NCBI RefSeq assembly: GCF_007994135.1
Contig: NZ_VLKF01000001.1
Location: 2,356,001-2,420,000, forward strand
DNA from: Modestobacter roseus
Lineage (GTDB): Bacteria; Actinomycetota; Actinomycetes; Mycobacteriales; Geodermatophilaceae
DNA: 64,000 nucleotides
Reading direction: 5' to 3'
In this document: positions 1,271 to 22,346 of the stretch, one piece after another
How the letters are laid out: each line of letters opens with the position of its first letter
How positions within the stretch are numbered: position 1 is the stretch's first letter
Notes under the pieces: model-generated
Database searches by the model: none
Told to the model about the DNA's origin: nothing
The model's input: the letters and a program-made list of their open reading frames with translations, nothing else
Position numbers and translations under genes: made by a program

Positions 1271-1288
1271 TTCGTCGCCGGGGACGAA
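1271..1288. promoter_or_regulatory. TTCGT-N8-ACGAA dyad upstream of the S9 peptidase gene
   Basis: Perfect 5-bp inverted half-sites TTCGT/ACGAA separated by 8 bp. The S9 gene has a -10-like hexamer CAGGCT at 1311-1316, six bases before its ATG at 1323, so the dyad would cover about -52 to -35 of a leaderless transcript. The same arrangement recurs at 16887-16904 and 22227-22244, and with one mismatch at 15366-15383. Which protein binds is unknown; the PucR regulator at 7553 is the closest candidate. Confidence 0.5.
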
Positions 1289-1322
1289 GACCCGCCGTCC
1301 CCGGGAGCAGCAGGCTCGGCGC

Positions 1323-3353
1323 ATGGGCCGGCCACTGGACCTCGCGGACGTGCACTGCCTGCAGCTGCCCGACTCGCCCACCATCGCCCCGGACGGACGG
1401 CACGTCGTCTACGTGCTGCGCACGACCGACGCGGACGCCGACGCCGACCGGCGGGCGCTGTGGTCGGTGCGCGCCACCGCCGACGGCTGGGCGGCGCCCA
1501 CCCCGCTGACCCGGGGCACTGCCGACACCGCCCCCGCCTTCTCCCCGCAGGGTGACCGGGTGGCCTTCCTCCGCGCCGGTGACGGCCCGGCCCAGCTGCA
1601 CCTGCTGCCGGTGGACGGCGGGGAGGCCGAACGGGTCACCGCCCTGCCCGCCGGCGCCGGGGCCGCGGTGTGGAGCCCGGACGGTGGACGGATCGCGTTC
1701 ACCGCGCCGGTGCGGCCGGAGACGGACGAACACGACCCGGTGCCGGTCACCCGGATCGGCTTCAAGGCCGACGGCGTGGGGCTGCTGCGCGGCACCCGCC
1801 AGCACCTGCACGTGCTCGACCTGGCCACCGGTGAGGTACGGCAGCTGACCGACGGCGACTGGGACGCCGGCCGCCCCGCCTGGTCACCCGACGGCGCCCG
1901 GCTCGCCTTCGCCGCCGCGACCGACCCGGACGCCGACCTCACCCACCGCACCCCCGTGCACGTCATCGACGCCGCCGGGGGACCGCCCCGGCGGGTGGGC
2001 GACGGCCTCGGCGTCGCCGGCCCGGTGCTCTGGACCGCCGACGGCGAGGCGTTGCTGGTCGCCGGGCAGTCCACCGTCGCCGTCGGCCACACCGGGCTGC
2101 TGCTCCAGCCACGGGACGCCGCCGCCGTCGCGCGGGACCTGGCCGCGCCGCTGGACCGCACCGTCATGCCCGGCGGGCCCGGCTACCCCGGCGGGCTGCC
2201 GCAGCTCACCGCGGACGGCGCCACCGTGGTCTTCTGCGTCCGCGACCGCGGCTGCTCGCACGTGTACGCCACCGCCGTCGACGGCTCGTCCGCGCCACGG
2301 CCGGTGGTCACCGGGGCGGACACGGTCGTCTCCGGGCTGGCCGTCGCCGCCCGCGCGGACGTCGTGGCGGTGGTGCTGGCCGACCCGGCCACCTTCGGCG
2401 AGGTCGCCGTCGTCGACCTGACCACCGGCGCCCCGACCCGGCTCACCGCGCACACCGCCGGCAGCCTCCCCGACGTCGACCTCGTCGTCCCGGAGCCCCG
2501 GACGTTCACCGTGCACGACGGCACCGAGGTGCACGGCTGGCTGCTCCGCGGGCCGGCGGCCGGCCCGGTGCCACTGCTGGTCGACGTGCACGGCGGGCCG
2601 CACAACGCCTGGTCACCGGCCGCGGACCCGGCGCACGCGTACCACCAGGCGCTCGTCGCGGCGGGCTGGGCGGTGCTGCTGCTCAACATCCGCGGCAGCG
2701 ACGGCTACGGCCACGCGTTCTTCACCGCCGCCGTCGGCGCCTGGGGCACCGCCGACGAGCGCGACGTCCTCGACCCGGTCGACCAGCTGGTCACCGAGGG
2801 CGTGGCCGACCCGGCCCGGCTCGCGTTGACCGGCTACAGCTACGGCGGCTACCTCACCTGCTGGCTGACCGGGCGCACCGACCGGTTCGCCGCCGCGATC
2901 GCTGGCGGGGTGGTCGCCGACCTCACCAGCCTGGCCGGCACCAGCGACGCCGGGGAGGCGCTGGGGCTGGAGTTCGGCGACCCGGTCATCGACCCGGAGG
3001 CCGTCAGGGAGCACTCACCCATCACGCACGTGCACCGGGTGCGCACGCCGACGCTGGTGCTGCACGGCGGCGCCGACGAGCGCTGCCCGGTCGGCCAGGC
3101 CGAGCAGTGGTTCACCGCGCTGCGCACCCAGCGGGTGCCCACCGAGCTGGTGCTGTTCCCCGGCGGCTCGCACCTGTTCATCCTCGACGGCCGCCCCTCG
3201 CACCGGGTCGACTACGGCCGCCGGCTCATCGACTGGGCGCTGCGGCACACGACCGGGGCGGGCGGCCGGTCGGTCACCGGCGGACTGTTCGCGCCGGGCG
3301 CCCCGGGTACCCGGGTGGCGCACCCACCCCAGGAAAGGGCTGAACTCCCGTGA
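1323..3353 (+). CDS. S9-family (prolyl oligopeptidase type) serine peptidase
   Basis: 676 residues. The N-terminal two thirds are a WD40/TolB-like beta-propeller with repeated SPDG(G/A) turns. The C-terminal alpha/beta-hydrolase domain carries the family triad: nucleophile Ser506 in GYSYGG, Asp585 in GGADERCP and His617 in GGSHLF. There is no signal peptide, so it should act in the cytoplasm on short peptides (acylaminoacyl-peptidase or dipeptidyl-peptidase type). The C-terminal 30 residues are low in complexity. The stop overlaps the GTG of the M20 gene (GTGA). The start is the ATG six bases after a CAGGCT hexamer, which suggests leaderless transcription. It opens the run of peptide-processing genes that extends to the racemase. 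Confidence 0.9.
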   Translation: MGRPLDLADVHCLQLPDSPTIAPDGRHVVYVLRTTDADADADRRALWSVRATADGWAAPTPLTRGTADTAPAFSPQGDRVAFLRAGDGPAQLHLLPVDGGEAERVTALPAGAGAAVWSPDGGRIAFTAPVRPETDEHDPVPVTRIGFKADGVGLLRGTRQHLHVLDLATGEVRQLTDGDWDAGRPAWSPDGARLAFAAATDPDADLTHRTPVHVIDAAGGPPRRVGDGLGVAGPVLWTADGEALLVAGQSTVAVGHTGLLLQPRDAAAVARDLAAPLDRTVMPGGPGYPGGLPQLTADGATVVFCVRDRGCSHVYATAVDGSSAPRPVVTGADTVVSGLAVAARADVVAVVLADPATFGEVAVVDLTTGAPTRLTAHTAGSLPDVDLVVPEPRTFTVHDGTEVHGWLLRGPAAGPVPLLVDVHGGPHNAWSPAADPAHAYHQALVAAGWAVLLLNIRGSDGYGHAFFTAAVGAWGTADERDVLDPVDQLVTEGVADPARLALTGYSYGGYLTCWLTGRTDRFAAAIAGGVVADLTSLAGTSDAGEALGLEFGDPVIDPEAVREHSPITHVHRVRTPTLVLHGGADERCPVGQAEQWFTALRTQRVPTELVLFPGGSHLFILDGRPSHRVDYGRRLIDWALRHTTGAGGRSVTGGLFAPGAPGTRVAHPPQERAELP

Positions 3354-4555
3354 CCGACCTGCTGGCCGGAAGTGACACCGAGGCACTGCTGCCCGGGATG
3401 CTGGCCGACCTCGAGGAGCTGGTCAGCTGCGAGACGCCGTCGTCGGACCCGGCCGCGGTGGCCGCCGGCGCCGAGCGGGTGGCCCGGCTGGGCGCCCGCG
3501 ACCTCGGTACCGACCCGGAGGTGCTGGTCGTCGACGGCTGCACGCACCTGCGCTGGCGGCTGGGCGGCGGGCCGCGGCGCCTGCTGCTGCTGTGCCACCA
3601 GGACACCGTGTGGCCGCGGGGCACCCTGGCGGAGATCCCGTGGTCGGTGACCGACGGCGTGGTGCGCGGACCCGGCTGCTTCGACATGAAGGCCGGCATC
3701 GTGCTCGCCTGCACCGCGCTGGCCCGGCTGCGTGCCGACGGCCTCGACCTCGACGGCGTGACCGTGCTGGTCACCGGCGACGAGGAGATCGGCTCCCCGA
3801 CGTCGGCCGACCTGATCCGCGCCGAGGCCCGGGACTGCGCCGCCGTCCTGGTGCTGGAGGCCAGCGCCGACGGCGGCGCGCTGAAGACCGGCCGCAAGGG
3901 CGCGTCGATGTACGAGCTGCTGGTGACCGGCCGGGCCGCGCACGCGGGGCTGGAGCCGGAGGCCGGCGTCAACACCACGATCGAGCTGGCGCACCAGGTG
4001 CTGGCGATCGCCGCCCTGGCCGACCCTGCACAGGGCACCACGGTCACCCCGACCGTGCTGGCCTCGGGCACGACGACGAACACCGTGCCGGCAGCCGGGC
4101 GGCTCGCCGTGGACGTGCGGGCGCTGACCGCGGCCGAGCAGCAGCGGGTGGACGCCGGCATCCGGGCGCTCACCCCGCGGGTGCCCGGCGCGGTGCTGGA
4201 GCTGCGCGGCGGCATCAACCGCCCGCCGCTGGAGGTGGCGTCGTCGGCCGCGCTGTTCGCCCTGGCTCAGCAGGTGGCGGCCCGGCTCGGGCTGCCCGCC
4301 CCTGCCGGGGTGACCGTCGGCGGGGCCTCGGACGGGAACTTCACCGCCGGCATCGGGGTGCCGACGCTGGACGGGCTGGGCGCCGTGGGCGGTGGGGCGC
4401 ACGCCGTGGGCGAGCACGTGCTGGCCGGTGAGCTCCCCGCCCGGCTGGCGCTGCTGACCGGTTTGGTCCGCGCGGTCCTCGACGGCGAGCTGGGCACGCA
4501 CGCCCGGGACGGCGGGGGCGTTGGTGTCCCGGACGAAGAGCCCTCCGGTGAATGA
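3350..4555 (+). CDS. M20-family metallopeptidase, probable N-succinyl-L-amino acid desuccinylase or carboxypeptidase
   Basis: 401 residues, the usual length for M20A/CPG2-like enzymes. Visible ligands are His83 and Asp85 (CHQDTVWP), the bridging Asp112 (GCFDMKAG) and the general-base pair Glu145/Glu146 in GDEEIGS, followed by the dimerisation (lid) domain and a closing GGASDGNF/GGGAHAVGE region with the last His. It begins at a GTG overlapping the S9 stop. Directly downstream are a COG3375 GNAT protein and an NSAR-type enolase. In Geobacillus kaustophilus an M20 enzyme in the same gene set removes succinate from N-succinyl-L-amino acids; that role is inferred here from context. A plain aminoacyl-peptide carboxypeptidase is the alternative. 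Confidence 0.88.
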   Translation: MTDLLAGSDTEALLPGMLADLEELVSCETPSSDPAAVAAGAERVARLGARDLGTDPEVLVVDGCTHLRWRLGGGPRRLLLLCHQDTVWPRGTLAEIPWSVTDGVVRGPGCFDMKAGIVLACTALARLRADGLDLDGVTVLVTGDEEIGSPTSADLIRAEARDCAAVLVLEASADGGALKTGRKGASMYELLVTGRAAHAGLEPEAGVNTTIELAHQVLAIAALADPAQGTTVTPTVLASGTTTNTVPAAGRLAVDVRALTAAEQQRVDAGIRALTPRVPGAVLELRGGINRPPLEVASSAALFALAQQVAARLGLPAPAGVTVGGASDGNFTAGIGVPTLDGLGAVGGGAHAVGEHVLAGELPARLALLTGLVRAVLDGELGTHARDGGGVGVPDEEPSGE

Positions 4556-4595
4556 GGAGCCCGCACCAAGCCCGGCGGGGTCTCCCCCACCGACC

Positions 4596-5558
4596 ATGGC
4601 CGGTGTGACCGACCTGATCGACGCGACGCCGGCGTCCCCGCTCCCGGCAGCAGGGGGCACCGGGGTCGCCCGGGCCGTCGCGCGTGCGGCCGCCGCCACC
4701 TCCGGCGTCCGGATCGTCGAGCTGACCGACCTCGCCGAGCTGCGCGCGGTGCAGGCGCTGTTCGACTCGATCTGGCACCCGGCGCCGGACAACCCCCCGG
4801 TGACCATCGAGCTGATGCGCGCGCTCACCAAGGCGGGCAACCCCCTCACCGGCGCCTACGCCGGCGGTGAGCTGGTCGGCGCCTGCATCGGCTTCTTCGC
4901 CGCCCCGTCGGGCACCTCGCTGCACAGCCACGTGACCGGCGTCGTCCCGGCCGCGCAGCGGCGGAGCGTGGGCCGGGCGCTGAAGCTGCACCAGCGCGCC
5001 TGGGCACTGGAGCACGGCATCACCCGGATCAGCTGGACCTTCGACCCGCTGGTGCGGCGCAACGCCTGGTTCAACCTGGGCCGGCTGGGCGCGGTGCCGG
5101 TCGAGTACCTGACCGACTTCTACGGCCCGATGCACGACACGATCAACGCCGCGGACGCCTCCGACCGGCTGCTGACCTGCTGGGCGCTGGACAGCGAGCC
5201 GGTGGTCCGCGCGGCGGCCGGGGAGCCGGTGACGGTCGACCTGCCGGGGCTGCGGGCGGCCGGGGCCGACGTCGTCGTCTCCGCCGGTGCCGACGGCGCC
5301 CCGGTGCTCGCCCCCGGCACACCGGGCCACCCCTGGCTGGTCGGGGTGCCGGCGGACGTCGAAGGCCTGCGCGCCCGGGACCCCGAGCTCGCCGCACGAT
5401 GGCGGGTGGCGGTGCGCAGCGCGCTGGGCGGGGCGCTGGCGGCCGGCGGCCGGGTGCGCGGTTTCGCCCGCGAGGGCTGGTACGTGGTGGACGGCGCAGG
5501 CACAGTCGACGGCGCGGGGACACCCGCCGCCCCCGAGGCCGGGAGGGCCACCCGATGA
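4596..5558 (+). CDS. GNAT-superfamily acyltransferase of the COG3375 type
   Basis: 320 residues from the ATG at 4596; an in-frame start at 4521 would overlap the M20 gene and is less likely. The GNAT core is in the first half, with an acyl-CoA pyrophosphate loop region VVPAAQRRSVGRALK at about 116-130 and the sequence RISWTFDPLVRRNAWFNL that is typical of COG3375 (predicted acyltransferases found beside menC-like genes). In the characterised Geobacillus pathway the neighbouring GNAT enzyme succinylates D-amino acids using succinyl-CoA. The next gene starts 10 bp downstream and is the racemase partner. The C-terminal half is variable and may carry substrate-specificity elements. Substrate assignment is inference. 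Confidence 0.85.
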   Translation: MAGVTDLIDATPASPLPAAGGTGVARAVARAAAATSGVRIVELTDLAELRAVQALFDSIWHPAPDNPPVTIELMRALTKAGNPLTGAYAGGELVGACIGFFAAPSGTSLHSHVTGVVPAAQRRSVGRALKLHQRAWALEHGITRISWTFDPLVRRNAWFNLGRLGAVPVEYLTDFYGPMHDTINAADASDRLLTCWALDSEPVVRAAAGEPVTVDLPGLRAAGADVVVSAGADGAPVLAPGTPGHPWLVGVPADVEGLRARDPELAARWRVAVRSALGGALAAGGRVRGFAREGWYVVDGAGTVDGAGTPAAPEAGRATR

Positions 5559-5568
5559 GAGCCACGCC

Positions 5569-6675
5569 GTGAAGCTGCAGAGCGTCGAGCTGCGCCGGAT
5601 CAGCATGCCGCTGGTCGCGCCGTTCCGGACGTCGTTCAGCACCCAGACCAGCCGCGACATCCTGCTGGTGCGCGCCCGCACCGACGTCGGCGAGGGCTGG
5701 GGCGAGTGCGCCGCGCTGGTCGACCCCCGGTACTCCGCCGAGTACGTCGACGGCGCGGCCGACGTGCTGCGCCGCTTCCTCGTGCCGGCCGTCGCCGCGG
5801 TGCCCGACCTCGACGCGAACGCCGTCGGCCGGGTGCTGTCGCCCTTCCTCGGCCACTTCATGGCCAAGGCCGCGCTGGAGACCGCCGTCCTCGACGCGGA
5901 GCTGCGCGCGGCCGGCCGGTCCTTCGGCGGGTTCCTCGGCGCCGCCACCGACCGGGTGCCCTGCGGGGTCTCGGTGGGGATCATGGACTCGATCCCGGCG
6001 CTGCTGGACGCCGTCGGGGGCTACCTCGAGCAGGGGTACCTGCGGATCAAGCTGAAGATCGAGCCCGGCTGGGACGTCGAGCCGGTGCGCGCCGTGCGGG
6101 AGCGGTTCGGCGACGTCGCACTGCAGGTCGACGCCAACACCGCCTACGCGGTCTCCGACGCCCGGCACCTGGCGAAGCTGGACCCCTTCGAGCTGCTGCT
6201 GATCGAGCAGCCGCTGCCCGAGGACGACGTGCTGGGCCACGCCGAGCTCGCCCGGCTGGTGCGCACGCCGATCTGCCTGGACGAGTCGATCACCTCCGCC
6301 CGGACCGCGGCCGCGGCGATCCGGCTGGGCGCCTGCTCGATCGTGAACGTCAAGCCGGCCCGGGTCGGCGGCTACCTGGAGGCCCGGCGGATCCACGACC
6401 TCTGCGCCGCGCACGGGGTGCCGGTGTGGTGCGGCGGCATGCTGGAGACCGGGCTCGGGCGGGCGGCGAACGTGGCGCTGGCGGCGCTGCCGAACTTCAC
6501 GCTGCCCGGCGACACCTCGGCGTCCGACCGCTACTACGCCACCGACATCACCGAGCCGTTCCGGCTGTCCGACGGCCACCTCGCCGTCCCGACCGGCCCC
6601 GGGCTCGGGGTCGAGCCCGACCCGGCCCGGCTCGACGCGGTGACGACGTCGGTCGAGGAGCTCAGCCTGCGCTGA
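5569..6675 (+). CDS. o-succinylbenzoate synthase / N-succinylamino acid racemase (enolase superfamily)
   Basis: 368 residues from GTG 5569, the normal family length. Enolase-superfamily MenC/NSAR subgroup signatures are complete: catalytic KxK at Lys161/Lys163 (KLKIEPGWD), metal ligands Asp188 (VDAN), Glu213 (IEQPL) and Asp238 (CLDES), second catalytic Lys262 (NVKPARVGG), and the C-terminal WCGGMLETGLGRAAN block. The subgroup contains enzymes that make OSB for menaquinone, that racemise N-succinylamino acids, or both. No men genes are present nearby, whereas a GNAT acyltransferase and an M20 peptidase lie directly upstream, so NSAR is favoured. The gene is 10 bp downstream of the GNAT gene. 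Two strong stem-loops follow it. Confidence 0.9.
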   Translation: MKLQSVELRRISMPLVAPFRTSFSTQTSRDILLVRARTDVGEGWGECAALVDPRYSAEYVDGAADVLRRFLVPAVAAVPDLDANAVGRVLSPFLGHFMAKAALETAVLDAELRAAGRSFGGFLGAATDRVPCGVSVGIMDSIPALLDAVGGYLEQGYLRIKLKIEPGWDVEPVRAVRERFGDVALQVDANTAYAVSDARHLAKLDPFELLLIEQPLPEDDVLGHAELARLVRTPICLDESITSARTAAAAIRLGACSIVNVKPARVGGYLEARRIHDLCAAHGVPVWCGGMLETGLGRAANVALAALPNFTLPGDTSASDRYYATDITEPFRLSDGHLAVPTGPGLGVEPDPARLDAVTTSVEELSLR

Positions 6676-6697
6676 GCCCGGCGGACTCCCGAGCGCG

Positions 6698-6754
6698 CGA
6701 GATCTGCGGTCTCGGGGCCACCGCGGCCGGGAAGCCCCGAGACCGCAGATCTCG
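6698..6754 (+). terminator. Long perfect stem-loop after the racemase gene
   Basis: Arms 6698-6718 and 6734-6754 are perfect 21-bp inverted repeats around a 15-nt loop, starting 23 nt after the racemase stop. There is no T-tract, as is common for actinobacterial terminators. The length and perfection would also fit a palindromic repeat element; no second copy was seen in this window. Confidence 0.6.
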
Positions 6755-6795
6755 TCGCGCGACCGGTCGCCGGCGCACCAGGCGATGAGTTCCGG

Positions 6796-6832
6796 CGCCG
6801 GCGGGCGTCTCATCGATGGGCGCCCGCCGGCG
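6796..6832 (+). terminator. Second stem-loop before the DinB-like gene
   Basis: CGCCGGCGGGCG at 6796-6807 pairs perfectly with 6821-6832 across a 13-nt loop. It lies 22 nt upstream of the ATG at 6855, just before the ribosome binding site at 6844-6848. It could end transcription from the racemase operon or shape the 5' leader of the next gene. Confidence 0.45.
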
Positions 6833-6854
6833 TCCATGGCGACGGAGGCAGCAG

Positions 6855-7469
6855 ATGAACGGGGACGGGGACGTCCGGTCCTGGGTGGGGCGCACGTACG
6901 ACGGGCTCGCGGACCTGCTGGCCACCGGGCCGGCCGGCACCTGGGAGGCACCGACGCTCTGCACCGGCTGGCAGGCGCGGCACGTCGTCGCGCACGTGAC
7001 CATGCCCGCGCGGCTGTCGGCCGAGCAGTTCGGCGCCGAGCTGGCAGCAGCGGGCGGCGACTTCGGCCGGCTGTCGGACACGGTGGCCGCCCGCGACGCC
7101 GCCCTGCCGACGGACGAGCTGCTGGTCGCGCTGCGCTCGCCGGTGCTGCACGCGTGGCAGCCACCGGGCGGGGGCGCCGCGGGGGCGCTGGTGCACGCCG
7201 TCGTCCACTCGCTGGACGTGACCGTCGCGCTGGACCGGCCGCCGGCCGCCCCGGCGGACGCGGTGCGCGCCGTCCTCGACCAGCTGACCGCCGCGCGGGG
7301 CGCGGTCTTCGGCGTGGACCTGGCCGGCGTCCGGCTCGAGGCCACCGACACCAGCTGGAGCTGGGGCGAGGGCACCAGCGAGGGCGACGTCGTCCGGGCG
7401 GACGGCGGCTCGCTGGTGGCGCTGCTCAGCGCCCGCCGGCTGCCCGACGGCCGCGACCTCCGCCGCTGA
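6855..7469 (+). CDS. Maleylpyruvate isomerase-family mycothiol-dependent (DinB-fold) enzyme
   Basis: 204 residues from the ATG at 6855, chosen because GGAGG stands at 6844-6848 with six-base spacing; the upstream in-frame ATG at 6816 has none. The segment TLCTGWQARHVVAHV (35-49) is the signature of the MDMPI N-terminal/TIGR03083 family, with metal-ligand His47 and a second His cluster HAVVHSLDV near 120. Members are DinB-like four-helix bundles thought to use mycothiol as cofactor. The substrate is not evident. It is separated from the racemase by two hairpins and followed 83 bp later by the PucR regulator, so it may be independent of the peptide operon. Confidence 0.8.
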   Translation: MNGDGDVRSWVGRTYDGLADLLATGPAGTWEAPTLCTGWQARHVVAHVTMPARLSAEQFGAELAAAGGDFGRLSDTVAARDAALPTDELLVALRSPVLHAWQPPGGGAAGALVHAVVHSLDVTVALDRPPAAPADAVRAVLDQLTAARGAVFGVDLAGVRLEATDTSWSWGEGTSEGDVVRADGGSLVALLSARRLPDGRDLRR

Positions 7470-7500
7470 CTCGTCCGACCCGACCATGGAAAGCGGCCTG

Positions 7501-7552
7501 ATCGTGCGATCGGACAACCACGGGAGGCCCCGATCTCCCTAGGCTCGGGGAG
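7501..7552 (+). promoter_or_regulatory. Leaderless promoter of the PucR gene with a weak TTCGT-N8-ACGAA-like site
   Basis: TAGGCT at 7540-7545 lies seven bases before the GTG start at 7553, so the transcript would begin at the start codon; the GGGGAGG beside the GTG is too close to act as a ribosome binding site. ATCGT-N8-ACAAC at 7501-7518 matches seven of the ten half-site positions of the dyad found upstream of the neighbouring peptidase genes, and reaches the expected -35 position. Autoregulation is a guess. Confidence 0.4.
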
Positions 7553-9235
7553 GTGACCCTGACTGCTGCGCACGTCCCGGGACCGGCCCCGCTCCAGCAC
7601 GCCCCGCGGGCCAGCCTCGGCAACGTGCTCGAACACCTGGGCACCACCCTGCTGGAGGTGGTGGCCGGCGACCCCACCCGGCCACTGGACGAGCTCGGCG
7701 TGGGCGGGGTGGTCATCCACGACCCGGTCGACGCCCCGGTCCTGCCGCCCCGCGCGCTGGTGCTGGGGGTCGGGGTGCACGAGCCCGACGACGTCCTGGC
7801 GCTGCTGACGGAGACCGCCGCCGCCGGCGGTGCCGGGGTGGTGGTGCGCGCGCCGGCGCCGACCGACCCGCGGATCGCCGAGGTCGCCGCGCGCACCGGC
7901 ACCCTGCTGCTGGCGCTGACCCGGGGCGCGAGCTGGAACCAGCTGGCCGCCCTGGTGCGGGCCCTGCTCGGCGAGGGCGAGGTGGGCACCGCCGAGCCGG
8001 AGTCGTTCGGCGGCGTGCCGGCCGGTGACCTGTTCGCCCTGGCCAACGCGATCGGGTCGCTGCTGGACGCGCCGGTGACGATCGAGGACCGCAGCTCCCG
8101 GATCCTGGCGTTCTCCGGCCGCCAGGACGAGGCCGACGAGTCACGGATCCAGACCATCCTCGGCCGCCAGGTGCCCGACCGGTTCACCCGCGGCCTGGAG
8201 GCGCACGGCATCTTCCGGCAGGTCTACGCCAGCGACCGGCCGGTGTGGCTGCCCGCGGACACCCTGGGCATGCCGGAGGTGACGGTGGCGCGCACGGCGA
8301 TCGCGGTGCGGGCCGGCGACGAGATCCTGGGCACCATCTGGGCCGCCACCGACGAGCCGCTGGACGACGCCCGGGAGCGCAGCCTGGTCGACGCGGCCAA
8401 GCTGGTCGCGCTGCACCTGCTGCGGATGCGGGCCGGCGCCGACGTCGAGCGCCGGCTGGCCAGCGAGCTGGTGGCCACCGCGCTGGAGGGCGGCCCGGGC
8501 ACCGTCGACGCGCTGGCCCGGCTCGGGCTCGCCGGCCGCCCGCTCATCGTCCTGGCGATGGGGCTGACCGAGCCCGACGCCGAGCCGGGCACGCTCAGCC
8601 TGGCCCGGCGGGAGGCGGAGCGGCAGCGGTCCGCCGACGCGCTCGCCGTGCACCTCACCGCGCTGCACCCGGGATCGGTGGTCGCGGTGGTCGGCGGGGT
8701 CAGCTACGCCGTCCTCCCGGTGACCGCCGGGATCGAGGGCGCCGACGAACGGGCGGCGGCCGTGGCCACGGAGTTCCTGCAGCGCACCGGCGGGCGGGTG
8801 CCCGGGATGATCGGCGTCGGCACCGTCGCCGCGGAGGTCTCCGCGCTGACCCGCTCCCGGGACAGCGCCGACCGGGCGCTGCGGGTGCTGCGCAGCGGCA
8901 CCACCTCCCGGCGGGTGGCGCGCGCCGCCGAGGTGCACATCGAGTCGCTGATGCTCCAGCTGGCCGACCTGGCCGCCGCCGAGGGGCACCAGGCCTCCGG
9001 TCCGGTGGCCCGGCTGGCCGCCTACGACGCCGCGCACCGCACCCAGCTGGTGGCGACGCTGCGGGCCTGGCTGGACGCCTTCGGCGACGCCATCCGCGCG
9101 GCCGGTGAGGTGCACGTGCACCCCAACACGTTCCGCTACCGGCTGCGGCGGATCGCCGAGGTCGGCGGCATCGACCTCGACGACGCCGACTCCCGGTTCG
9201 CCGCGATGCTGGAGCTCCGCCTGCTGCGCTGGTGA
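7553..9235 (+). CDS. PucR-family transcriptional regulator
   Basis: 560 residues. The N-terminal about 130 residues form the PucR ligand-type domain, the middle (about 155-290) looks GAF-like (LLDAPVTIEDRSSRILAFSG; ILGTIWAATDEP), and the C-terminus has the PucR helix-turn-helix: VHVHPNTFRYRLRRIAEVGG followed by DDADSRFAAMLELRLL. PucR/CdaR-type proteins usually activate catabolic or transport genes (purines, sugar acids, amino acids, peptides). Its place between the NSAR cluster and the oligopeptide transporter operon, and a weak copy of the shared dyad at its own promoter, make it the natural candidate regulator of this region. That link is inference. Confidence 0.88.
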   Translation: MTLTAAHVPGPAPLQHAPRASLGNVLEHLGTTLLEVVAGDPTRPLDELGVGGVVIHDPVDAPVLPPRALVLGVGVHEPDDVLALLTETAAAGGAGVVVRAPAPTDPRIAEVAARTGTLLLALTRGASWNQLAALVRALLGEGEVGTAEPESFGGVPAGDLFALANAIGSLLDAPVTIEDRSSRILAFSGRQDEADESRIQTILGRQVPDRFTRGLEAHGIFRQVYASDRPVWLPADTLGMPEVTVARTAIAVRAGDEILGTIWAATDEPLDDARERSLVDAAKLVALHLLRMRAGADVERRLASELVATALEGGPGTVDALARLGLAGRPLIVLAMGLTEPDAEPGTLSLARREAERQRSADALAVHLTALHPGSVVAVVGGVSYAVLPVTAGIEGADERAAAVATEFLQRTGGRVPGMIGVGTVAAEVSALTRSRDSADRALRVLRSGTTSRRVARAAEVHIESLMLQLADLAAAEGHQASGPVARLAAYDAAHRTQLVATLRAWLDAFGDAIRAAGEVHVHPNTFRYRLRRIAEVGGIDLDDADSRFAAMLELRLLRW

Positions 9236-12652: not shown

Positions 12653-12655
12653 CGC

Positions 12656-13666: not shown

Positions 13667-13710
13667 GTGCACCTCCTCCGCTCCGAGCGCCCTGTCCGTG
13701 ACCCGCCTGC

Positions 13711-15291: not shown

Positions 15292-15365
15292 GGGGTGTCC
15301 TCTCGGGAGGTCAGTGCGGAGGAGTGGCGGTTGCGAGAAGGCTGCCCGGCATCGGGCGGGGGGTC

Positions 15366-15383
15366 TTCGTGCGCTGGCACGAG
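15366..15383. promoter_or_regulatory. TTCGT-N8-ACGAG dyad upstream of the peptide transporter operon
   Basis: One mismatch from the TTCGT-N8-ACGAA dyad seen at 1271, 16887 and 22227; its spacer begins GCGC like the 16887 copy. It lies 75 bp upstream of the SBP start codon at 15291. Confidence 0.45.
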
Positions 15384-15395
15384 GTGACCGGGGGC

Positions 15396-15417
15396 GGCTC
15401 GTCGGTGGTGACGAGCC
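15396..15417 (-). terminator. Hairpin between S12 hydrolase gene and transporter operon
   Basis: GGCTCGTC (15396-15403) pairs with GACGAGCC (15410-15417) around a 6-nt loop, 16 nt after the S12 stop in the transcribed direction. It would end the S12 transcript or lower read-through into the SBP gene. Confidence 0.4.
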
Positions 15418-15432: not shown

Positions 15433-16821
15433 TCACCCAGCGGCCCGGGGCACGGCCCGGCCGATGTGCAGGAACGCGGCGTGGCCGGCGCCGTCGTCAC
15501 CGAGGAAGGCGAAGGGCACGTGCAGCCCCGACTGGGCCTGCACCGGGATGAGCGTGTCCGGGGCGAAGGCCACCAGCTCGCTGCGCTCGGGCTGCTCGCC
15601 CAGCTCGAGCGCGTCGCCCTTGGGCCGCATCTCCAGCCACACCCGGCCGTCGTCGTCCTGGCTGACCACGAGGTCGGCGACCCGGCTGCTGTAGGTGCCG
15701 GCGTACCGCATCGCGTCGACCGGCTCCGGGTGCTCCGGCGGCACCGGCAGCGGGTGCAGCTGCACGTCGGCCAGTTCGCGGAGCACGTGCCCCACCACGT
15801 CGCGGTAGAGCCCGTAGGGGTTCCCGCCGTTGGTGAGCAGGACGACGGCGATGCCGCGCTCGGGCAGCACCCGCAGGAACGAGGCCTGGCCGATGGTGTT
15901 GCCGTCGTGCCCGACCACCGGGGTGCCCAGCCCGTCGAACAGCTCCCAGCCCAGCCCCCAGGCGTCGCCCATCACCCGGATGTCGGGCAGCCGCACCCGG
16001 GGCTCCTGCATGGCCGCGACCGTGCCGGCGTCCAGCACGGTCGCGCCGTCGGCGGCCTTGCCCGCCTCCAGGTGCATCCGGGCGAAGGCGATCAGGTCCC
16101 GCGGCCGCATCGCCAGCGTGGAGCCGGCCGGGGCGTTGGACCGGGCCAGCGCCCACACCGGGGCCGGCACCTCCGGGGCGTCCGGCTCGGGGCGCACGTG
16201 GCCCACCGCCACCCGGTGCACGATCGCCTCGTACGGGCTCGCCGCGGCGTGGGTGAGCCCGAGCGGGGTGAACAGGTGCTCGGCCAGGCACTCGTCGAAG
16301 GGCTTGCCGCGCAGCACCTCCACCAGCCGGCCGAGCACGCAGTAGCCGGCGTTGTTGTAGGAGAACTGGTCGCCGGGCGGGAAGAGCTGGGCCAGGTCGC
16401 CGAGGCCGGCGACGTAGCGCGCCAGGGCGTCGTCGCCGCGACCGGTGTCGGTGAAGACGTCGCCCTCGAAGCCCGCGGTGTGGCTGAGCAGCTGCTCGAC
16501 GGTGAGGGTGCGGGCCGCGTGCTCGTCGGCCAGCGCGAAGTCGGGCAGGTGCCGGCTCACCGGGTCCGCCAGCGCGACCCTGCCGTCGTCGACCAGCTGC
16601 ATCACCAGCGTCGCCGTCCACACCTTGGTGATCGAGCCGATCTGGAACAGCGAGTCCGGCGTCGCCTCCACTCCGGTGGCCGTGCTGAGCAGCCCGGCGG
16701 CGGCGTCGACCACCTCGCCGTCGGCGAGCACCGCCACCCCGGCGGCGGGTACGTCGTGCTCGGCCAGGAGTGCGGGCAGGCGGTCGCGGATCCAGGCTCC
16801 GACCTCGTCCAGCTTCGTCAT
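15433..16821 (-). CDS. S12-family serine hydrolase (beta-lactamase class C / D-aminopeptidase fold), copy A
   Basis: 462 residues from ATG 16821; TACCGT lies six bases before it (minus-strand reading, 16833-16828), so it is probably leaderless. Catalytic SxxK is Ser63-Ile-Thr-Lys66, YxN is Tyr155-Asn-Asn157, and the later GHDG motif corresponds to the KTG-like box. No signal peptide. The beta-rich C-terminal domain (about 365-462) resembles the extra domains of D-aminopeptidases and esterases in this family. It is clearly paralogous to the gene at 22347 (shared blocks FQIGSITKVWTATLVMQLVD and DVFTDTGRGDD). The family includes D-stereospecific peptidases, which would fit the D-amino-acid theme; an esterase or beta-lactamase-like role is also possible. 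Confidence 0.87.
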   Translation of the reverse strand: MTKLDEVGAWIRDRLPALLAEHDVPAAGVAVLADGEVVDAAAGLLSTATGVEATPDSLFQIGSITKVWTATLVMQLVDDGRVALADPVSRHLPDFALADEHAARTLTVEQLLSHTAGFEGDVFTDTGRGDDALARYVAGLGDLAQLFPPGDQFSYNNAGYCVLGRLVEVLRGKPFDECLAEHLFTPLGLTHAAASPYEAIVHRVAVGHVRPEPDAPEVPAPVWALARSNAPAGSTLAMRPRDLIAFARMHLEAGKAADGATVLDAGTVAAMQEPRVRLPDIRVMGDAWGLGWELFDGLGTPVVGHDGNTIGQASFLRVLPERGIAVVLLTNGGNPYGLYRDVVGHVLRELADVQLHPLPVPPEHPEPVDAMRYAGTYSSRVADLVVSQDDDGRVWLEMRPKGDALELGEQPERSELVAFAPDTLIPVQAQSGLHVPFAFLGDDGAGHAAFLHIGRAVPRAAG

Positions 16822-16853
16822 GCCGGAACGGTAGGAGCGCCGGTGCGCTGGTG

Positions 16854-16993
16854 GTTCGTGGTGGCGGCCAGCCCTCGGGGACGGCGTTCGTGCGCACCGA
16901 CGAAGCCCGCCCTGGGCCGTCGCGGCAGACCGCGAGAGGCGGACCGACCGGGTGGACGCCGACCCGCGGGGCCCGACGGGTGGACCAGCACGT
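16854..16993. repeat. Direct repeat, copy A (partner at 22194-22349)
   Basis: From TTCGTGGT to CACGTG this non-coding stretch aligns with 22194-22349 in the same orientation; over the first 74 aligned bases 61 are identical, and 28 of 29 around GGCGTTCGT-CGCACCGACGAA. At copy B the repeat ends in the GTG start of the S12 gene; here the equivalent GTG opens no gene. The two copies bracket the GH81 gene. Confidence 0.7.
16887..16904. promoter_or_regulatory. TTCGT-N8-ACGAA dyad upstream of S12 hydrolase A
   Basis: Perfect dyad with spacer GCGCACCG, centred about 75 bp upstream of the leaderless start at 16821 and lying inside repeat copy A. A position this far upstream suits an activator. Confidence 0.5.
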
Positions 16994-16995
16994 GC

Positions 16996-17032
16996 CCCGG
17001 TGGCACGGCGGCGCCGCCGCCGTGCCACCGGG
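16996..17032 (-). terminator. Terminator of the GH81 gene
   Basis: Perfect 17-bp arms, 16996-17012 (CCCGGTGGCACGGCGGC) and 17016-17032, with a 3-nt loop, beginning 5 nt after the GH81 stop. No T-tract. Confidence 0.7.
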
Positions 17033-17037
17033 CCGGA

Positions 17038-20000
17038 TCAGTCCTCGACGACCGGCGACCAGACGCCCAGCTCCCACAGCGAGTAGCCGTACCCGGTGGC
17101 CCGCTGCAGGCCCTGCACCCGCACGTGGCGCGCGGTGGCCGACACGTCGTACGCCGTCTCGCCGACCGACCCGGCGCGGTCGGGCCCGAGCTGCCGCCAG
17201 GGGTCGTCCTCGCTGTCGCGCACCTGGATGCGGAACTGCGTGGCGTACGCGGCCTCCCAGTCGGTGGTCACCCGGGAGATCGGGGTGACCCGTCCCAGGT
17301 CGACCTGCACCCACTCGTCGTCGCTGCCCCAGGCGCTGGACCAGCGGGTGGTGGTCCGCCCGTCGACGGCGTCGGCGAGCGGGGTGCCCTCCCACTCCAC
17401 CGACGAGGCGGTCACCGGCCGACCGAGCGCGACGTTGCGCAGCGCCGGGGGCGGAGCGGGCGACGTGGCCTGCGTCCGGACGTCGACCGTGGCCGTCCCG
17501 GTGGCCGACCCGACGGCGGCCGTGACCGTGGCCGAGCCGGCCGCCGGGGCGGTGAACCGGCCGGTGGCGTCGACCTCGCCGGCGGTGGTCGTCCAGGTCA
17601 CCGGCGCGTCCGCGGTCAGCGGGCCGCCGTTGCCCGCGGCGTCGAAGGCGTACGCGGTGAGCTGCGTCGTCGTCCCGGCGAGCACGGTGCTCGTCGGCGG
17701 GCCGACCAGCACGGTCGTCGGGGTGACCGCCGCGGCGCTGGGCGTGCCGTGGACCTCGACTCCGTAGATCGAGTAGCCGTACTGGGTCAGCCGGGTCAGC
17801 CCGGTGATCCGGACGTACCGGCCGGTGGCCGCCACGACCAGGTCGTCGTCGCCGGCGTCGGTCTTGGTGACCGTCTGCACCGGGGCGCCGCCGTCCGGGT
17901 CGTCGGAGACCGACAGCTGGTACGTGCGCGCCGCGGCCCCCTCCCAGTCGACGTGCACCCGGCGGACGTCGTACTCCGCACCCAGGTCGATCTGCAGCCA
18001 CTCGTCGTCGCTGCCGTGGACGCTCTCCCAGCGGGTGTCGCCGCGCCCGTCGACGGCCAGCGGCGCGGTGTTGCCACCGAGCTCGCTGCTCGCGGTCACC
18101 TGGGCGCCGCGGGCCACGTCGGCCAGCGGGGCGACCACGGCGACGACGGCGGAGCCGGTGGCCCCGCCCGCCGCGGTCGCCGTCACGTACCCGGCCCCGA
18201 CCGCACCGGCGGTGAACCGGCCGCCCTCGACCGTCCCGTCGGCGGACGTCGTCCAGGTGAGCTCGCCGGCATCGGCCGGGTCGCCGTACTGGTCCCGGCC
18301 GGTCGCGGTGAGCGCCAGCTCCTGTCCGCTGACCACCTGCTGCCACCCGGGGGTGACGGTCAGCGCGGTGAGCACCGGTGCCGGCGCGACCCGCAGCGCG
18401 TACGCCTGGGTGACGCCGCCACTGGTGGCGGTGACGGTCACCGGGTCGGCCTCGGTGGTGGCGGTGAACACCCCGGCCGGGCTGATCGTGCCGCCGCCGC
18501 TGACCTGCCAGGTCACCTCGTCCAGGGCGATGGTGGCGCCGTACTGGTCGATGCCGGTGGCGGTGAAGGCCACGGTGCTGCCCGGCTGGACCGTGCGGAC
18601 GGCGCCCGGGGTGGTGACCTCGACGTGGTCGAGCGCCGCGTCCAGGTGGTGCCGCACGGTGGCGTGCGCCGGCACCCGGATCGTGCCGATCTCCCGCGCC
18701 GCCGTACCGGTGCCCTCGTAGACCGGGTACACCTGCTCGCTGTCGGTCGGGTTGGTGACGACGTAGGTGTACGTGCCGTCGGCGGCGCGGTAGACCTGGC
18801 TCAGCGGGGCGCCGGTGTGCCGGTCGAGGGTCTCGGTGCCGGTGCCCAGGTTGGACAGGGCGTTCCAGTAGACGATCCCGGCCATCGACTGCGACGTCGC
18901 CACCGGGTCCTGCGCCGCCCACAGCGCGTCGGCGATGTCGACGTACTGCGCCGGGTCGGCCTGGGCCAGGTAGCCCAGCAGCACGTTGCCCAGCGCGTCA
19001 CCGATCCGGCTGTACACGGCCACCGCCTGCGCGGTGTCCTCGCCGGGCTCGTAGTCCCCGGCGTCGTAGGCGTACAGCGCCCTCGCCGCTGCGGGGTCGG
19101 CCACGTAGTCCGTGGACAGCCGCTCGAACAGCGGCCAGGCGGGGCCCCACGTCTTCGGGTCGGCGTCCGGGTCCGCGGCCGGCGGGGCGATCGGGGTCAG
19201 CGCTGCGGGCAGGGCGTCGGGCGTCCAGACGTCGGCCGGGAAGGTCAGCGAGCCGTCGGCGGCGACCGTGACCAGCAGCCGGCCGTCGTCGTACAGCGGG
19301 TTGTCCGGGGTCTCCGCCGTCACGTACGCCGGGTTGTGCAGGTACGCCGTCCGGACGGCGTTCTGCACGTCGCCGATCGCGGCGTTGCGGTCCAGGGTGA
19401 TGATCGTGTCGCCGTAGGTGCCGACGCCGTACCAGCTCTTGGCTGCCGCCTGCAGCCTGCCCGCGACGTCGCCGGGCACGCCGGCCGCGAGCGCGGCCGG
19501 TCGCAGGGTGAAGAGGTCGGCCAGCCGGGACCGGGAGAACGCCGGGTCCCAGCCGAGGTAGTTGAACCACGGCGCGGTCGGCATCCACTGGATGCCGTAG
19601 GTCCACGCCGGGTCGCCGGAGAAGTAGTTGGCGAACGTGGGGCCGCTGTCGAAGAGGATCCCGACGGTGGTGTGGTCGAACTCCGCCGGGTAGGTCGAGG
19701 GCCCCTGCGGGTCGCTGGCAGCCGGGCTGCCGACGGCATCCAGCCAGTACTGGCGCACCGAGGCGCGCTCGGTGACGTAGCCCATCGCGCCCTCGGCCTG
19801 CATCTCGGCGTCGCCGAGCACGGTGCCCAGCAGGTAGAGCCCGGCCCACGACTGGATCGCCTCGGAGCTGGACTCCTGGTTGTTGCCGCCGGGCGAGCTG
19901 AAGCCGCCGGCGTAGGAGTGGCCCTCGAAGGTGTCGAAGGTGCGCTGGTAGGGGAAGTCGGCGTCGTCGCGGTCCCAGTTGGCGTACTGCTTGGCCACCA

Positions 20001-22056
20001 GGGTCGCCATCTCGCCGTACTGCTCGGCGAACTGCGGGTCGGTCAGCCCCAGCAGCGCGGTGGCCAGGGTGAAGTAGCCGTAGTGGAAGTGGTTGTCGGT
20101 GAACTGGTAGGAGCCGTAGGAGTCACCGAACCCGATGAGCGCCGCCCACGAGTCGTACCGGGCGAAGAAGTGCTCGGTCTCCCCCGGCGTGTACGTGTAC
20201 CAGTCGGCGAGCGCCGTGCGCAGCGTCGACTGGAGCGTGGTGAACGCCTCGGTGTCGCCGATCTGCTGGGCGATGAGCATGTACTCGGCGTACTGCTGCA
20301 GGTCCTTGCCGCCCCAGTAGGTGTCGCCGCCGTAGCTGGTGCGCTCGGCGTACTCGTCGACGTAGCGCTGCATCCGCGCCGGGTCGTACTCGGCGGCCTC
20401 GGGCAGCGCGGCCAGCGGGCTGATGCCGGTGAAGGGGTAGGTGACCGTCCACGGTCCCGGGCCGATCGTGGTCTCCATCGGCCCGCGCGGGGTGGCGTAG
20501 CGGACGCCGGAGAACGCCAGGTCGTGCGTCGTCTCGACGTGGTGGTGCGGCAGCCAGCCCTGCACGACCTCGGTGCCGGTGCCCTCCAGCGCCTCGGCGT
20601 CGACGGTCCAGGTCTCGGCGACCGTGCCGGCCGCCTGGTCGTAGACCGACTCCATCGCCACGTCCCGCGGGACGGCGAACGCCGTGCGGTGCAGGTCGTC
20701 CAGCGTCGCGCCGCTGGCCGGGACGGCGCTGACGACGAGGTGCGGCACGTCGGTCTCGGCGGTGAGCACGTCGCCCGCGCGGGAGAAGGTGGTGCCCGCC
20801 GGCACGTGGACGCCGTAGGTGCGCCCGCCCTGGGTGACGGCGAACCGGTCGGCGGTCAGCGGGAAGGTCACCGGGTCGCCGTCGGCGTCGGTGACCACGG
20901 CGCCGGGCTGCAGGGTGAGCCGCGGGGCCATGTCGGTGTACTCGAACCAGGTGTAGGGCATGCCGCGCGAGGCGGTGACGTCGACGTGCTGGGTGCCGCC
21001 GGTCTGCTGCATCCGCCAGCTCACGTTCTGGTCGCCCCAGCGCAGCGCCGTCGCGCTCTCGGCGCGGAACGCCGGGTCGAAGCGGGTGGCCAGACCCTCG
21101 GGTTCGTCGGTGAGCACGACCTGGTCGACGAGCACGTGCGCCCAGCCGGCGGTCAGCGTGTCGACCACCCGGATCTGCGCCTGCTGCCCGGCCCAGGCCG
21201 ACAGGTCCCAGGTCACCCAGCGCAGCGCCTCGGAGTTCTCGCCGGTGGCCGACTGCACGACCTCGCCGTCGACGACCAGCTGGACCTCCTCGGCTCCCGG
21301 GTGGTTGCCGCCGGCGACCAGGAAGCCGGCGAAGCCGCGGTCGACGGTGAACGCCGGCGAGGTGAGCGTGCCGGTGGCGCCGTCGCCGCGGCCGTCGGTG
21401 AAGGAGTTGGCCAGGCCGGCGCCGAGGAAGCCGGCGACCGCGCTCTGCCCCGCGTTGGTGCCCGCCGAGGGCACGTCGGCGAAGGCGTCGCCGGTCGCGG
21501 TCCAGCCGGTCGCACCGGTGGCGGAGTCGAAGTCGGCGAGGACCACGTCGGAGGCGGCCGGCTGCGGCGTCACGGTGCCGCCGACGACCAGCGGCTGCTC
21601 GAGGCGCATCGCGGTGCCGTCGGCGTTCCACCGCGTGGGGTAGGTGACCGTGGTGCCGTTCGCGCTGTTCGAGACGACCAGCGGGTCGGCCCACAGGTCC
21701 CCGGACCAGCGGCTGACCACGAGGTCGGTCCACCAGGCGTTGGTCGGGACGGGGTGGCCGTCCAGGCTGGGGTCGATGAACAGCTGCTGGTCGACCGTCT
21801 CCGACACCGTCGGCCGGTGGTTGGCGTCCAGCGACGCCGGGGGCGCGGCGGCGTAGGACCCGCTGCCGACCGCCACGACGGACGGGTCGCCGGGAGCGGC
21901 GTGCGCGGGCGGGGCGGCCAGCACGAGCGGGACGGCGCCCAGCGCGGTGGCCGCGGCGAGCGCCGCGGCCAGCCGCGGCATCCGGCGGGACGGCGTCGGT
22001 CGGCGGGTGCGGTGCGGGTCGGTCACGGGGTCTGCCACCCGATCAGCGGAGGTCAC
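17038..22056 (-). CDS. Secreted GH81 endo-beta-1,3-glucanase with Ig-like and F5/8-type C domains
   Basis: About 1672 residues; the start is uncertain (GTG 22056 chosen; 22077 and 22026 are alternatives). An Arg-rich n-region, a hydrophobic core and PAHAAPGD form a signal peptide. The GH81 body begins near TNAWWTDLVV and has both catalytic motif regions, DNHFHYGYF (about 20075-20103) and GGNNQESSSEAIQSW (about 19845-19890). A beta-sandwich CBM-like module is inserted in the N-terminal GH81 domain (about 21105-21540). After the catalytic part come three bacterial Ig-like domains (about 18380-18620, 18130-18380, 17480-17720) and two F5/8-type C (discoidin) domains (about 17745-18130 and 17040-17440). 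Substrate is expected to be beta-1,3-glucan of fungal, oomycete or algal walls. It lies alone on its strand, bracketed by two direct repeats. Confidence 0.9.
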   Translation of the reverse strand: MTSADRVADPVTDPHRTRRPTPSRRMPRLAAALAAATALGAVPLVLAAPPAHAAPGDPSVVAVGSGSYAAAPPASLDANHRPTVSETVDQQLFIDPSLDGHPVPTNAWWTDLVVSRWSGDLWADPLVVSNSANGTTVTYPTRWNADGTAMRLEQPLVVGGTVTPQPAASDVVLADFDSATGATGWTATGDAFADVPSAGTNAGQSAVAGFLGAGLANSFTDGRGDGATGTLTSPAFTVDRGFAGFLVAGGNHPGAEEVQLVVDGEVVQSATGENSEALRWVTWDLSAWAGQQAQIRVVDTLTAGWAHVLVDQVVLTDEPEGLATRFDPAFRAESATALRWGDQNVSWRMQQTGGTQHVDVTASRGMPYTWFEYTDMAPRLTLQPGAVVTDADGDPVTFPLTADRFAVTQGGRTYGVHVPAGTTFSRAGDVLTAETDVPHLVVSAVPASGATLDDLHRTAFAVPRDVAMESVYDQAAGTVAETWTVDAEALEGTGTEVVQGWLPHHHVETTHDLAFSGVRYATPRGPMETTIGPGPWTVTYPFTGISPLAALPEAAEYDPARMQRYVDEYAERTSYGGDTYWGGKDLQQYAEYMLIAQQIGDTEAFTTLQSTLRTALADWYTYTPGETEHFFARYDSWAALIGFGDSYGSYQFTDNHFHYGYFTLATALLGLTDPQFAEQYGEMATLVAKQYANWDRDDADFPYQRTFDTFEGHSYAGGFSSPGGNNQESSSEAIQSWAGLYLLGTVLGDAEMQAEGAMGYVTERASVRQYWLDAVGSPAASDPQGPSTYPAEFDHTTVGILFDSGPTFANYFSGDPAWTYGIQWMPTAPWFNYLGWDPAFSRSRLADLFTLRPAALAAGVPGDVAGRLQAAAKSWYGVGTYGDTIITLDRNAAIGDVQNAVRTAYLHNPAYVTAETPDNPLYDDGRLLVTVAADGSLTFPADVWTPDALPAALTPIAPPAADPDADPKTWGPAWPLFERLSTDYVADPAAARALYAYDAGDYEPGEDTAQAVAVYSRIGDALGNVLLGYLAQADPAQYVDIADALWAAQDPVATSQSMAGIVYWNALSNLGTGTETLDRHTGAPLSQVYRAADGTYTYVVTNPTDSEQVYPVYEGTGTAAREIGTIRVPAHATVRHHLDAALDHVEVTTPGAVRTVQPGSTVAFTATGIDQYGATIALDEVTWQVSGGGTISPAGVFTATTEADPVTVTATSGGVTQAYALRVAPAPVLTALTVTPGWQQVVSGQELALTATGRDQYGDPADAGELTWTTSADGTVEGGRFTAGAVGAGYVTATAAGGATGSAVVAVVAPLADVARGAQVTASSELGGNTAPLAVDGRGDTRWESVHGSDDEWLQIDLGAEYDVRRVHVDWEGAAARTYQLSVSDDPDGGAPVQTVTKTDAGDDDLVVAATGRYVRITGLTRLTQYGYSIYGVEVHGTPSAAAVTPTTVLVGPPTSTVLAGTTTQLTAYAFDAAGNGGPLTADAPVTWTTTAGEVDATGRFTAPAAGSATVTAAVGSATGTATVDVRTQATSPAPPPALRNVALGRPVTASSVEWEGTPLADAVDGRTTTRWSSAWGSDDEWVQVDLGRVTPISRVTTDWEAAYATQFRIQVRDSEDDPWRQLGPDRAGSVGETAYDVSATARHVRVQGLQRATGYGYSLWELGVWSPVVED

Positions 22057-22346
22057 GGGCGGTGAACCTATAGGCACTTTGTGTCACATAGATTGCCGGG
22101 TGCAACCGCAGGGACGAACAGCCGGTGCCGGCATCGGCCCCGACGCCGCGAGCCGGCGCCGGCACTCGCCGCGGTGCGCCGGCCCCCTCCCGGCTTCGTG
22201 GTCCCGGCCAGCCGTGCCCGGCGGCGTTCGTACGCACCGACGAAGCCCGCCGCGGGCCCGCGCGGCAGGCTGCGGCCACGGGCCGACCAGGTGCACGCCG
22301 ACCCGCCGACACGCCGACCCGCGCAGCCCGACGGACGGAGCAGCAC
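22057..22346. promoter_or_regulatory. Divergent control region between GH81 and S12 hydrolase B
   Basis: 290 bp without a gene. The left end is unusually A+T-rich for this genome (22065-22090), with an imperfect CTAT...ATAG dyad around CACAAAGTG, and could hold the GH81 promoter. The right part is repeat copy B with the TTCGT-N8-ACGAA dyad at 22227-22244. GGAG at 22337-22340 is the ribosome binding site of the S12 gene. Confidence 0.45.

Follow-up and report, generated by a model that had tools for sequence, protein, structure and literature searches.

A tandem pair of 18-bp inverted repeats, set at a fixed distance upstream of a -10 hexamer, precedes five promoters of a peptide and D-amino-acid gene cluster in Modestobacter roseus, and the same arrangement recurs before the same genes in other actinobacteria. 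The cluster lies in a 64-kb stretch of the genome (contig NZ_VLKF01000001.1, positions 2,356,001 to 2,420,000; the whole stretch is called the window below), and the five promoters stand before the genes for an S9 peptidase, a PucR-family regulator (pucR), a peptide-binding protein (SBP) and two S12 hydrolases (S12A and S12B). This dyad pair is a real, conserved operator system. It is likely, in our judgement, to be the operator of an autoregulated activator, the PucR-family protein encoded at 7553-9235, controlling the salvage of peptides and D-amino acids.

The composite promoter element

A preliminary description of the window had proposed a single dyad, TTCGT-N8-ACGAA (18 bp), as the operator of a local regulon and PucR as its candidate binder, with exact copies at 1271, 16887 and 22227, a one-mismatch copy at 15366 and a weak copy at 7501, all close to start codons and rare by chance. 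All five sites were found where that description had put them, the weak PucR-promoter dyad occupying exactly 7501-7518, and the number of bases between dyad and start codon ranged from 34 to 102 (S9, 34, ATG 1323; PucR, 34, GTG 7553; SBP, 74, ATG 15291; S12A, 65, ATG 16821; S12B, 102, GTG 22347). The rarity was likewise borne out, with a mean of 0.00 exact dyads in 100 dinucleotide shuffles, and four exact dyads in the 4.52-Mb genome as against none for the reversed pattern. Three of these four are cluster promoters, while the fourth (C1:228714) falls within a 181-amino-acid open reading frame (ORF) that other ORFs overlap at the same place; the genome-wide scan that had been suggested therefore puts every exact match outside an ORF in the cluster.

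When up to one mismatch is allowed, the genome holds 83 sites (4 exact and 79 others) compared to 12 for the reversed pattern. Given this frequency, a one-mismatch copy alone is weak evidence, and the copy at 15366 needed other support. This was provided by a second dyad at 15398-15415, which forms with 15366-15383 a pair that is matched in five related loci (L018-L022; L numbers denote loci of relatives), so that the 15366 copy is part of the SBP promoter pair. Two further one-mismatch copies in the window, at 21103 and 23511, were rejected as sites, since they lie within the reading frames of a GH81 glucanase and of S12B, respectively; neither belongs to a composite promoter. Outside the window there are 76 one-mismatch sites, and among the 59 listed ones, which were examined for a partner and a -10, a single site had a partner (score 8, a LexA-like box) and a single site had a -10 at the composite distance. 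The operator of the SOS regulator LexA is a palindromic box of the TCGAAC-N4-GTTCGA type, and the one-mismatch matches include boxes that we take to be LexA-like, at C1:346981, 2329158 and 2936574; none of the ten window dyads has this form.

The preliminary description was right about the site and the candidate binder, but the single dyad did not hold up as the unit. Around the strong sites we found a second dyad at 31 or 32 bp, often the weaker of the two, and the actual element consists of two dyads with the consensus TTCGTC-N6-GACGAA, 31-32 bp apart, followed after 21-22 bp by a -10 hexamer. Each dyad was scored out of 12 against this consensus and each pair out of 24. A scan of both strands of the window for a pair of at least 16 plus a -10 returned five composites, before S9, pucR, SBP, S12A and S12B, and none in the reversed window. 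Their parts are as follows.

1239-1256, forward strand: S9 distal dyad CTGGTCGGCGCCGCCAGT, weak (6/12), 32 bp upstream of the proximal dyad; from the composite scan
1271-1288, forward strand: S9 proximal dyad TTCGTCGCCGGGGACGAA, 12/12; an S9 dyad also in L023-L028
1311-1316, forward strand: S9 -10 CAGGCT, 22 bp past the dyad; message from ATG 1323 predicted to be leaderless or nearly so
7470-7487, forward strand: PucR distal dyad CTCGTCCGACCCGACCAT, 9/12; aligned site perfect in L024-L026
7501-7518, forward strand: PucR proximal dyad ATCGTGCGATCGGACAAC, 8/12, the weak copy described previously; aligned in L020 and L024-L026
7540-7545, forward strand: PucR -10 TAGGCT, 21 bp past the dyad; GTG 7553
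15339-15344, reverse strand: SBP -10 CAGCCT, 21 bp past the dyad
15366-15383, reverse strand: SBP proximal dyad CTCGTGCCAGCGCACGAA, 9/12; counterparts in L018-L022
15398-15415, reverse strand: SBP distal dyad CTCGTCACCACCGACGAG, 10/12; counterparts in L018-L022
16828-16833, reverse strand: S12A -10 TACCGT, ATG 16821; from alignment and composite scan
16855-16872, reverse strand: S12A proximal weak dyad GCTGGCCGCCACCACGAA, 7/12; close match in L018, L021 and L022
16887-16904, reverse strand: S12A distal strong dyad TTCGTCGGTGCGCACGAA, 11/12; one copy between S12A and S12B in L018-L022
22195-22212, forward strand: S12B distal weak dyad TTCGTGGTCCCGGCCAGC, 7/12; from the composite scan
22227-22244, forward strand: S12B proximal strong dyad TTCGTACGCACCGACGAA, 11/12; exact dyad match and composite scan
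22266-22271, forward strand: S12B -10 CAGGCT, 21 bp past the dyad; leadered, GTG 22347

Conservation and spacing in other actinobacteria

The loci of relatives were picked by a search of named genomes with the S12B protein and not by the motif, which gave 79 loci (best match 92%, in an uncultured Modestobacter). For the dyad and pair counts, sequences with fewer than four cluster genes were left out (24 of 88), leaving 64 sequences from 60 genomes. We then ranked all 1,024 five-base half-sites with spacers of 0-14 bp (15,360 combinations) in the 289 promoter regions of these genomes. TTCGT-N8-ACGAA came first, with 21 genomes (20 of 59 without the window) and about 0.01 expected from base composition. 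The spacer letters differ between species and the half-sites are kept. One exact dyad lies between the divergent S12A and S12B genes in L018-L022 (Modestobacter, Blastococcus), and exact dyads also precede S9 in Klenkia (L023, L027, L028) and Modestobacter (L024-L026, with another before pucR), an S12A-led operon in five of six Kribbella loci examined, Amorphoplanes L069, Pseudosporangium L077 and Trebonia L047, and the peptide-binding gene in Flexivirga L035 and one Streptomyces (L045). The exact dyad is absent in many more distant loci, including L039, L042, L046, L049, L050 and L085 of the Actinoplanes group.

The element reaches beyond a local regulon and spans many actinobacterial genera. 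A pair score of at least 19 was reached in 32 of the 60 genomes, compared to 4 for the best of the 59 other half-site permutations. Among spacings of 20-60 bp tested at this score, 31 and 32 bp were found in 17 genomes each and any other in at most 6; at the laxer score of 18 the numbers were 17 genomes for 31 bp, 22 for 32 bp and up to 9 for other spacings. Trebonia carries two perfect dyads exactly 32 bp apart. Of 72 pair-bearing regions, 67 have a -10 of the form Y-A-N-N-N-T at 21-22 bp from the proximal dyad, and the offsets next in frequency have 4 each; the five regions without it are L035 DAA, L035 S12A, L045 PucR, L078 PucR and L020 S12B. In the 624 kb of loci L018-L047, some of which overlap, we counted 33 composites (pair of at least 18) and none in the reversed sequence, and 32 of the 33 lie within scored promoter regions. 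Counted from the -10 matches, the dyad centres would lie near -75 and -43, and the proximal dyad would extend to the -35 position. In several cases the start codon follows the -10 by 6-8 bp, a distance that would fit leaderless messages.

The candidate regulator and competing explanations

The window PucR protein matches HTH_30 at 70.4 bits (cut-off 27) and GGDEF_2 at 32.4 bits (cut-off 24.5), and its best NCBIfam match is AdeR, at 118 bits far below the cut-off of 700. In Bacillus subtilis, the PutR and AdeR regulons serve proline and alanine metabolism. Matches to PucR turned up in all 9 genomes of one search (our own included) and in 18 of 21 of a second, and each of the 32 genomes with a pair score of at least 19 has one of at least 50% identity, in the locus or elsewhere in the genome. 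It is absent in three metagenome-assembled genomes (L048, L051, L052), two of which (L051, L052) score lowest for the pair among the 60 genomes (12), while L048 has too few cluster genes for pair scoring and showed no site of at least 10; the incompleteness of such assemblies weakens this point. After removal of 9 of the 65 pucR matches (below 48% identity or starting after residue 60), 54 genomes had a pucR upstream region that could be used, and 21 of them carry the pair before pucR itself, these 21 belonging to Modestobacter, Blastococcus, Actinocatenispora, Streptomyces, Kribbella, Nocardioides, Amycolatopsis and Arthrobacter.

The closest described parallel is GabR of Corynebacterium glutamicum, a PucR-type activator of gabTDP. 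According to PMC7652997, GabR is an octamer whose target, immediately upstream of the -35, consists of two inverted repeats between -87 and -23; binding is weak with one complete site and strong with two. Both systems have a PucR-type protein with a C-terminal helix-turn-helix and a pair of inverted repeats ahead of the promoter core at about -87 to -23, our positions being taken from -10 matches. They differ in that GabR lacks the GGDEF-like domain of the window PucR, in that its repeat measures 21 bp and its regulon serves the use of γ-aminobutyrate (GABA), and in that the GabR study dealt with one promoter region whereas we propose five (same text). PutR and AdeR of B. subtilis are also PucR-type proteins with inverted-repeat operators, of 17 and 24 bp, but their description in the available part of PMC7652997 mentions no tandem pairing.

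By analogy, a PucR oligomer would bind both dyads, near -75 and -43, and activate transcription in class II fashion from the proximal site over the -35 position, including that of pucR itself, with a metabolite of peptides or D-amino acids as the putative inducer. The regulon would import peptides via Opp, the S9 and S12 hydrolases would cleave the imported peptides, and the set of a GNAT N-acyltransferase, an N-succinylamino acid racemase (NSAR) and an M20 metallohydrolase would turn the released D-amino acids into their L-forms.

Several observations weigh against this interpretation. PF07905, the N-terminal Pfam domain after which the PucR family is named (PMC7652997), gave no match at E up to 1 in the window protein, so that the family label depends on HTH_30. 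Many genomes with a pair score below 19 also have PucR, and its presence alone is therefore not discriminating; low-scoring genomes include most of the Actinoplanes group, several with a PucR orthologue in the locus. The preliminary description had suggested a check of whether the dyad stands upstream of the same orthologues in relatives. It does stand there, with changed spacers, but 28 of the 60 genomes miss a pair score of 19 and 23 miss 18, and rows from related species are not independent. Of the usable pucR upstream regions 33 of 54 score below 18, and the pair of the window's own pucR promoter scores 17, the weaker dyad of each window pair matching at only 6-9 of 12 positions. Across seven relatives, exact matches number 33 genome-wide, with just 12 inside the cluster and 21 outside (in Klenkia soli the sole match is in the cluster), and the reversed pattern occurs 0, 0, 0, 0, 1, 3 and 2 times, the counts of 1-3 being those of Kribbella and Flexivirga. 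Moreover, the composite model was partly learned from these promoters, so that the controls carry more weight than the matches, and positions relative to the transcription start come from -10 matches and not from mapped 5' ends. Finally, the location of a dyad over the -35 could suit a repressor as well.

PucR might indeed bind the same paired operator as a repressor that is released by the inducer. In each of the five window promoters, 21-22 bp separate the end of the proximal dyad from the -10, so that this dyad reaches the -35 region, and by eye some PucR promoters (L029, L031, L036, L037, L038 and Amycolatopsis) show a second -10-like sequence, for example TAGGAT, between the dyads, perhaps a basal promoter that a bound regulator would block. 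According to PMC7652997, however, the PucR regulators compared there are activators except for B. subtilis PucR, which works in both modes, and the rigid two-site spacing upstream of the -10 found here resembles the arrangement of the activator GabR, which makes repression unlikely. Self-repression of pucR had been our own first reading, from pairs placed around TAGGAT; it was dropped when, with more downstream sequence included, 19 of the 21 pucR promoters with a pair proved to have a -10 at 21-22 bp.

A different regulator could bind the dyads, either encoded elsewhere or of the WYL type found beside PucR in Modestobacter L024. The adjacency of PucR is indeed no proof, and in L024 the stretch 11579-13160, between pucR and oppF, holds a WYL-type regulator gene and an opposite-strand DinB-like gene (labels from translations). 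In the window, however, the gap between PucR and OppF measures only about 340 bp and has no room for such genes. Any other gene family was found in the loci of at most 8 of the 32 pair-bearing genomes (ORFs of at least 140 codons, composition filter), the most widespread other ORFs shown looking antisense by eye, and the pair stands before pucR itself in the genomes counted above; we regard a different binder as quite improbable, although a regulator encoded far away may yet take this part. That the dyads are chance occurrences, a dispersed repeat or RNA hairpins, for which one could cite the duplication that contains two of the three exact copies and the frequency of one-mismatch copies in the genome, is contradicted by the dyad ranking and the pair and -10 counts, by conservation with a variable spacer and fixed distances, by the position of the sites upstream of proposed starts and by the single strong match of the duplicated stretch beyond itself, and has next to no probability.

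Gene content, promoter duplication and the proposed regulon

The genes of this stretch are the following.

1323-3353, forward strand: S9 peptidase (Pfam Peptidase_S9)
3350-4555, forward strand: M20 metallohydrolase (Pfam Peptidase_M20)
4521-5558, forward strand: GNAT N-acyltransferase (Pfam Acetyltransf_6); the true start may be further in
5569-6675, forward strand: N-acyl/N-succinylamino acid racemase of the enolase superfamily (PDB 1sja, 584 bits; MR_MLE)
7553-9235, forward strand: PucR-family regulator, proposed binder (HTH_30, GGDEF_2; orthologues in relatives)
9579-13714, reverse strand: oligopeptide ABC transporter OppF, OppD/OppC, OppB (labels from translations; conserved order)
13711-15291, reverse strand: peptide-binding protein SBP (Pfam SBP_bac_5)
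15433-16821, reverse strand: S12 hydrolase A (Pfam Beta-lactamase)
17038-22077, reverse strand: GH81 glucanase between S12A and S12B (Glyco_hydro81C, F5/8 type C domains); a role as target is unsupported
22347-23777, forward strand: S12 hydrolase B (Pfam Beta-lactamase)
23774-25264, forward strand: D-aminoacylase-like amidohydrolase, the D-specific label being tentative (Pfam Amidohydro_3; NCBIfam NF006560, amidohydrolase family protein)

The GNAT, racemase and M20 genes are adjacent in the window, an arrangement that recurs in relatives. Sakai et al. (2006) reportedly described in Geobacillus a pathway in which an N-succinylamino acid racemase takes part in the irreversible conversion of D- to L-amino acids. 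Common to both are neighbouring genes for a GNAT enzyme, a racemase and an M20 protein; the cluster described here adds a peptide transporter, S9 and S12 hydrolases and a PucR regulator. Together, the GNAT-racemase-M20 set, peptide import and the S9 and S12 hydrolases suggest the salvage of D-amino-acid peptides, for instance muropeptides; such peptides would be the substrate. The N-acylamino acid racemase of PDB 1sja, which the window racemase matches, comes from Amycolatopsis and is known from structure and biocatalysis. Amycolatopsis loci have GNAT, racemase and PucR genes in a row, with the dyad pair before pucR. We found no literature on the regulation of this racemase among openly licensed papers.

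Between the racemase and pucR lies a gene resembling mycothiol-dependent isomerases (MDMPI_N, 6816-7469), and just past the racemase there is a perfect, terminator-like inverted repeat with 21-bp arms (6698-6718 and 6734-6754). In L020 and L024-L026 the pucR promoter directly follows the racemase, without the MDMPI_N gene. Modestobacter L024-L026 also have a third S12 hydrolase gene (70-71% identity to S12B) between S9 and M20, absent at this place in the window.

The preliminary description had noted that the dyads at 16887 and 22227 lie in duplicated sequence, and this we can confirm and specify. The duplication consists of direct repeats either side of the GH81 gene (81% identity over 80 nt and 86% over 42 nt).

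16855-16997, no strand assigned: left copy of the duplicated divergent promoter, with the S12B-side -10 changed (CAGACC) and a remnant S12B start
22195-22352, no strand assigned: right copy, beginning at the weak dyad

Each copy can be aligned with the one intergenic region that L018-L022 have between S12A and S12B, and each keeps both dyads, the left copy retaining the S12A -10 and the right copy the S12B -10. In the shared region S12A has the strong dyad as its distal and the weak one as its proximal site, and S12B the other way round, so that one pair can serve both directions. One dyad region would thus serve the divergent genes in L018-L022, and in the window, where GH81 splits it, each S12 gene would have its own copy. 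A GH81 query of 800 residues matched in 3 of 39 related genomes, our own included, and none of the other cluster proteins was found in the 20 and 17 kb of sequence around GH81 in the other two. Window positions 22080-22181 match the GH81 5' flank of one congener (74% over 104 nt). Because of this match and the direct repeats, GH81 was probably inserted into the shared promoter, with duplication of the latter.

Several other readings of this stretch were rejected. The two S12 genes are inverted relative to each other (74% over 542 nt) while the repeats are direct, and L018-L022 have both genes and one exact dyad, which speaks against the dyads being by-products of S12 gene duplication. A dispersed repeat was dismissed because the duplicated stretch strongly matches just its other copy in the genome (E 1.6e-22; next match 4.7e-6 over 38 bp). 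An S12A start region that a first alignment had placed in the right copy turned out to match GH81's own 5' flank instead. GH81, which had been put forward as a possible target, is probably outside the regulon: the weak dyad marks the beginning of the right copy, and no -10 on the GH81 side came out of the composite scan.

Openly licensed papers yielded nothing on this regulon, and the literature on PucR operators brought up GabR. On balance, we lean towards the view that a system not described in the papers searched, spread over many actinobacterial genera, places the scavenging of D-amino-acid peptides under an autoregulated PucR-type activator and gives the racemase a physiological setting, with a promoter grammar of dyad, 31-32 bp, dyad, 21-22 bp, -10 and often a leaderless start. 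For a regulator family with few mapped operators (as far as the available text of PMC7652997 goes), this would provide an operator grammar open to testing. In the GH81 stretch, a shared promoter has been naturally duplicated, with the dyads kept in both copies. A sensor for D-amino acids or peptides might be built on the conserved promoter. Since one proposed regulon combines peptide uptake and S9 and S12 hydrolases with the genes for GNAT, the N-acylamino acid racemase and M20, the purpose of the racemase becomes directly testable.

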